From Nitrososphaerota archaeon (GTDB lineage Archaea; Thermoproteota; Nitrososphaeria; Nitrososphaerales; Nitrososphaeraceae), in contig VBPX01000023.1 of assembly GCA_005877075.1 (NCBI GenBank), forward strand, positions 1 through 39,373: a stretch of 39,373 bases of DNA, written 5' to 3'. Within the stretch, counting starts at the first letter, position 1; each line of letters starts with the position of its first letter. The notes under the pieces were generated by a model, which saw only the letters and a program-made list of their open reading frames with translations, did no database searches and was not told where the DNA came from. Below, piece by piece: positions 17,721 to 18,063 of this stretch. The translations under genes and the position numbers were made by a program.

Positions 17721-17870
17721 TTATTTTCACTTGGCTAACGATTACTATCATACAAAATAATAATGCTCTTTGTAATTAAAACGTCTCCAAATCTATTTAA
17801 TTTTAGGGTCTTTAAACAAATAAAAATAAGAAATATTCCAACAAAATCAAGCAGATGTGGCAGAGTGGTC

Positions 17871-17891
17871 TTCTTAATCTTAAGAACACAG
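17871..17891 (+). other. Putative D-loop intron of tRNA-Ser
   Basis: A 21-22 base insertion in the D loop contains the perfect inverted repeat TTCTTAA-TC-TTAAGAA (17871-17886). Flanking GTG (17865-17867) can pair with CAC (17887-17889), leaving 3-base bulges GTC and AGT. That is the layout of a relaxed bulge-helix-bulge site for the archaeal splicing endonuclease. Cutting in the bulges would remove 17870-17891; cutting one base later removes 17871-17891. Confidence 0.75.
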
Positions 17892-17909
17892 TAATGCGTC
17901 GGCCTTGAG

Positions 17910-17923
17910 TTAGGCCGAAAGAA
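17910..17923 (+). other. Putative canonical-position intron (37/38) of tRNA-Ser
   Basis: Fourteen bases, TTAGGCCGAAAGAA, sit between G37 and A38 of the anticodon loop. Loop bases CTT can pair with AAG inside the insert, leaving an AAA bulge at the 3' splice side, a short approximation of a bulge-helix-bulge. Without removal the anticodon loop would have 21 bases. Confidence 0.75.
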
Positions 17924-18063
17924 AGCCGATTCGCCTTCGGGCGAGCAGGAGTTCAAATCTCCTCATCTGCGTCTTGCTCAATTACCTAAATATTTTGAAT
18001 TTACCCATTTTATAAAATCCAATCAAGAAACTAATTGAATAGAATTATAAAAAATCACATATA

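Follow-up and report, generated by a model that had tools for sequence, protein, structure and literature searches.

A serine tRNA gene with two predicted introns, one of them in the D loop, kept across a family of Nitrososphaerota

Can a tRNA gene that common callers overlook, interrupted at two places, still be the source of a working serine tRNA? The question arises in a stretch of 39,373 nucleotides (the window) from an archaeon of the ammonia-oxidizer type, in the family Nitrososphaeraceae. Archaeal markers in the window include an archaea-specific ThrRS editing domain and a family-B DNA polymerase, and the named matches to its HMG-CoA reductase, at about 50% identity, are led by records from Nitrosopumilus and other Thaumarchaeota. 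A first-pass annotation, made from the sequence alone, had placed at 17851-17971 a gene for tRNA-Ser(UGA) with two introns, one in the D loop. That proposal proves right to the base, judged by the spliced form, by conservation within the family, and by orthologues in which the D-loop site is empty.

The gene, on the forward strand and including G73, is 121 nt long before splicing. It scores 43.7 bits against RF00005 (gathering threshold 29) in a search of its own genome, and a local Rfam scan gives the same score. A default scan of the window misses it, as does ARAGORN when given the unspliced gene, in both cases because of the two inserts. Removal of 17871-17891 and 17910-17923 leaves, as the first-pass annotation had claimed, an 86-nt serine tRNA with perfect stems: the product has G73, the anticodon UGA, and a long variable arm, and Watson-Crick pairs fill the acceptor stem (7 of 7), the D stem (3 of 3), the anticodon stem (5 of 5), the variable arm (5 of 5), and the T stem (5 of 5). 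Only this doubly spliced form is called by ARAGORN, as tRNA-Ser(tga). Exon 1 (17851-17870) comprises the 5' strands of the acceptor and D stems and the D loop as far as C20a; it is nearly invariant among the family's genomes, and its D-arm sequence is the same in intronless orthologues. The D-loop intron (17871-17891, 21 nt) then interrupts the gene between positions 20a and 20b. Exon 2 (17892-17909), delimited by comparison with orthologues and with the family's genomes, runs from U20b to G37, with the anticodon at 17906-17908, and is followed by an intron of 14 nt at the canonical 37/38 position (17910-17923). Exon 3 (17924-17971), with the 3' strand of the anticodon stem, the variable arm, the T arm, the acceptor strand, and G73, is again nearly invariant in the family. 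Moving the first intron one base along, to 17872-17892, would leave the product unchanged in the window species, an option ruled out by those relatives whose intron starts with A.

The gene has a stable setting. It lies between a gene for a DegT-type aminotransferase, on the opposite strand, and a gene of the glucose/sorbosone dehydrogenase type, followed by the gene for HMG-CoA reductase, and its position beside the latter is kept in relatives. Upstream of the tRNA gene, at 17815-17840, is an A/T-rich sequence, AAATAAAAATAAGAAATA, which is conserved in the genus and is likely to be the gene's archaeal TATA box.

Within the family, the complete gene was read in 52 of the 70 genomes, and these were compared. 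In the genus, each of the 12 genomes has the Ser(UGA) gene, with a length of 120-130 nt. An insert follows GTGGTC in every one of the 52 genomes, always at the same site, with a length of 17-35 nt and 40 different sequences, and yet the same genomes yield only 21 mature Ser(UGA) sequences, which vary at few sites. Of the 52 genomes, 50 also have the 37/38 intron; the two that are without it, G027 and G033, retain the D intron, so the two introns represent separate events. The comparison of serine tRNA genes in related genomes, which the first-pass annotation had proposed as a check, thus finds both inserts in place across the family and the exons nearly identical. 

Outside the family, nine other families of the class were sampled, through 20 genomes found by similarity and 9 genomes of family f2 found with a Ser model. 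In none of these sampled genomes is the D loop interrupted. Most of the genes read GAGTGG(A/T)C|TAATGC, with small variants, together with CTTGAGAGCC, which is the predicted splice product; removal of the D intron therefore gives a normal tRNA like that of the intronless orthologues. In family f2 the D arm has diverged, yet it too is uninterrupted. A few outgroup Ser(UGA) genes retain an intron at 37/38. The confinement of the D-loop intron to the window's family in this sample suggests a single gain there, and the family thereby offers a phylogenetically bounded intron gain for which empty-site orthologues are available.

Inserts of other kinds occur in the outgroup. The Ser(UGA) gene of one genome from the same order (G163, locus L229, family f5) carries, besides a 37/38 intron, an insert whose best placement is 29/30; its D loop has no insert. 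Several Ser(UGA) genes of families f3, f9, and f18 (L231-L236, L241, L242) have an apparent insert near the boundary of the acceptor and the D arm, with a GCCGGG-like motif upstream. Probing the named loci with the Ser model added nothing concerning the D-loop intron.

What would an endonuclease recognize in the D loop? The structure sought was the bulge-helix-bulge (BHB), taken as two 3-nt bulges flanking a 4-bp helix, with the cut past the second base of each bulge. The D-loop insert has this structure in relaxed form. GUGG at 17865-17868 faces ACAC at 17886-17889, making three standard pairs and a G.A, and the bulges are U17869 C17870 | U17871 and A17890 G17891 | U17892. The first-pass annotation had proposed a foot of GTG/CAC with three-base bulges; the site is indeed plausible, with the helix now extended to four positions and the bulges read as UC|U and AG|U in place of GTC and AGT. 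Genus g5 has CCAU, CCAC, or CUAC as the 3' strand, which completes the helix to four pairs, and in six relatives the central helix is reduced to two pairs and two mismatches. The 5' strand consists of G15, U16, G18, and G19 (numbered by the established tRNA convention). It is fixed because the tRNA itself includes these nucleotides, and since it is invariant, support for the helix comes solely from the intron side.

Beyond the central helix lies an inner hairpin (17872-17885), given both by the predicted fold and by a conserved start of four pairs. It was described initially as TTCTTAA/TTAAGAA, correctly as to its existence; its extent is better given as TCTTAA/TTAAGA (17872-17877 with 17880-17885; in RNA, UCUUAA/UUAAGA). 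The first four inner pairs are fully formed in 30 of the 40 distinct D introns, as against 2.6% of shuffled introns, and in 28% when arms are swapped between D introns. The inner helix is not chance pairing. With position and splice-site structure conserved in all 52 genomes and only the intron bodies variable, the proposal of a splice site at a non-canonical position stands, and these constancies, together with the matching intronless orthologues, imply that the inserts are introns. Across an entire archaeal family the D-loop intron has stayed in place as its sequence changed, and the family may serve as a set of cases for testing which features a relaxed BHB cannot lose.

The second intron occupies the canonical position, as CTTGAG|...|AGCC, where intronless orthologues read CTTGAGAGCC. 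Like other archaeal 37/38 introns, it follows nucleotide 37 and forms a helix with the first anticodon nucleotides; it differs from the canonical form in that its central helix, CUUG (17904-17907) with AAAG (17918-17921), has three pairs and a G.A. The predicted cuts within this relaxed BHB are AG|U and AA|A. Its length of 14 nt was given correctly in the first-pass annotation and there judged to be near the lower size limit; in the genus, this gene's 37/38 intron usually has that length.

When the anticodon arm is folded computationally, the minimum-energy prediction is a competing hairpin and not the BHB, a point against the reading with two spliced introns. A stretch of the intron is complementary to the 5' strand of the anticodon stem and to the anticodon (17899-17916), and similar stretches occur in the 37/38 introns of relatives. 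Perhaps the intron has a double role, with the complementary stretch hiding the anticodon and the adjoining strand until splicing. Of the 40 distinct introns, 21 fold with the 5' exon better than 95% of shuffles; in the window, z is -3.2, and the complementarity reaches 11 bp in one genus. But the hairpin is missing from several species, G054, G001, and G021 among them, and the 37/38 introns share ancestry, so the counts are not independent. Because the hairpin is enriched without being universal, and because of this relatedness, masking is kept as a lead, and an unlikely one. One might go on to suppose that the endonuclease site forms only after refolding, perhaps once the D intron has been removed, making splicing an ordered quality check; we consider this extension less likely still.

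Are there other ways to account for the interrupted gene? It might be a decaying pseudogene, or the inserts might be errors of assembly, as one could suspect of a gene that standard callers miss. Against this, the exons are intact and nearly identical in 52 genomes, where the inserts occupy corresponding sites, and on the strength of that family-wide conservation the pseudogene reading was rejected. The first-pass annotation had held that another intact tRNA-Ser(UGA) gene would mark this one as a pseudogene; a tRNA search of the organism's own genome found no second Ser(UGA) gene. The genome is a 1.97-Mb draft in 123 contigs, estimated at 94.9% complete, and another copy could therefore be missing from it, but the single gene found makes the pseudogene alternative very unlikely, and decay or misassembly together scarcely merit belief.

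Alternatively, splicing might be confined to the 37/38 insert, and the mature tRNA might keep the other one, with a D loop larger than usual. In favor of this, several species have an imperfect BHB at the D intron. However, a retained insert would pair with G15, G18, and G19, which are needed for the tRNA elbow, and the helix at the splice sites is constrained. Furthermore, all sampled outgroup orthologues do without the insert, and similar inserts occur in tRNA-Ser(CGA) and tRNA-Arg(CCU) of the same genome, where removal also yields recognizable tRNAs. We consider retention highly improbable. As read from the sequence comparisons, the locus very probably encodes a functional, single-copy tRNA-Ser(UGA) with two BHB introns removed by protein enzymes, one at the canonical site behind G37 and the other at a non-canonical site, 20a/20b of the D loop.

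If so, the D intron would pair in the precursor with G15, U16, G18, and G19, and this pairing would keep the D loop from docking with the T loop, delaying the folding of the elbow until the intron is gone. An endonuclease of the (alpha beta)2 type would cut at UC|U...AG|U and at AG|U...AA|A, and RtcB, the ligase of which the genome encodes one, would join the exons.

The genome encodes two PF01974 proteins, as do most relatives. The first, EndA alpha, has its match in the catalytic subunit of the crenarchaeal enzyme (3p1z chain B; E-value 1.3e-44) and conserves the catalytic Tyr, His, and Lys. Its Lys54 aligns with Lys44 of the crenarchaea-specific loop (CSL) of Aeropyrum pernix, and a further Lys lies two residues on; the catalytic triad and Lys54 are invariant in the 9 genomes compared. 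The CSL and its lysine are reported to confer broad specificity on the endonuclease (PMC6379350), conservation extends to K44 and to a positively charged residue at 46 (PMC12397907), and the thaumarchaeal endonuclease is of the alpha2-beta2 type (PMC4090602). For enzymes that combine an alpha subunit bearing the CSL lysine, which relaxed sites require, with a second subunit in which the catalytic His is not conserved, acceptance of such sites has been reported (PMC4090602, PMC6379350). The resemblance to the A. pernix (alpha beta)2 enzyme (3p1z/3ajv) extends over 180 aligned residues of alpha, including the catalytic residues and the loop lysine. The second subunit departs from it: at the catalytic position the protein of the window species (L149) has His, and those of most relatives (L252-L266) have Pro, Thr, or Arg there instead. 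It had been argued initially that two introns in one tRNA imply an endonuclease of relaxed specificity. A relaxed enzyme is consistent with the encoded subunits, but the case for it comes from the enzyme type and the position of the intron and not from two introns per se.

The Ser(UGA) gene is not alone in its genome in having inserts at unusual positions. tRNA-Ser(CGA) (L206, C73:14107-14239) has a D-loop insert of 23 nt, with a TAGG/CCTA central helix, and a 37/38 intron of 26 nt, and ARAGORN calls Ser(cga) only once both are removed. tRNA-Arg(CCU) (L210, C25, about 2860-2956) has a D-arm insert of 28 nt, whose removal leads to a call of Arg(cct). There are probable inserts in the D loop of Leu(UAA) (L208, C45:68198-68313), in the T loop of Trp (L031, C70:6786-6920) and in the variable/T arm of Gly(UCC) (L036, C81:17787-17909), the last two in addition to introns at 37/38, and between the acceptor and the D arm of Gln (L034, C108) and Asp (L037, C93). 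With common callers missing a gene such as that for Ser(UGA), a tRNA essential for reading a codon can appear to be absent from such genomes.

The two-intron Ser(UGA) gene is of a kind already on record: D-arm introns have been described in archaea, as have tRNAs with several introns. Non-canonical positions in archaeal tRNAs include 20/21, and one tRNA has three introns (PMC4090602); 107 non-canonical introns are reported from thaumarchaeal genomes (PMC8450103), and Caldiarchaeum has introns in the D arm (PMC3293823). A literature search naming Nitrososphaera with tRNA introns returned nothing specific. The introns of Thermoproteales, Thaumarchaeota, and Caldiarchaeum (PMC4090602, PMC8450103, PMC3293823) share with the one considered here their BHB-type sites, their shortness, positions that take in 20/21 and the D arm, the occurrence of multiple introns per tRNA, and a two-gene endonuclease with the CSL. 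What sets the present intron apart is its place at 20a/20b of tRNA-Ser(UGA) and its conservation there across a family.
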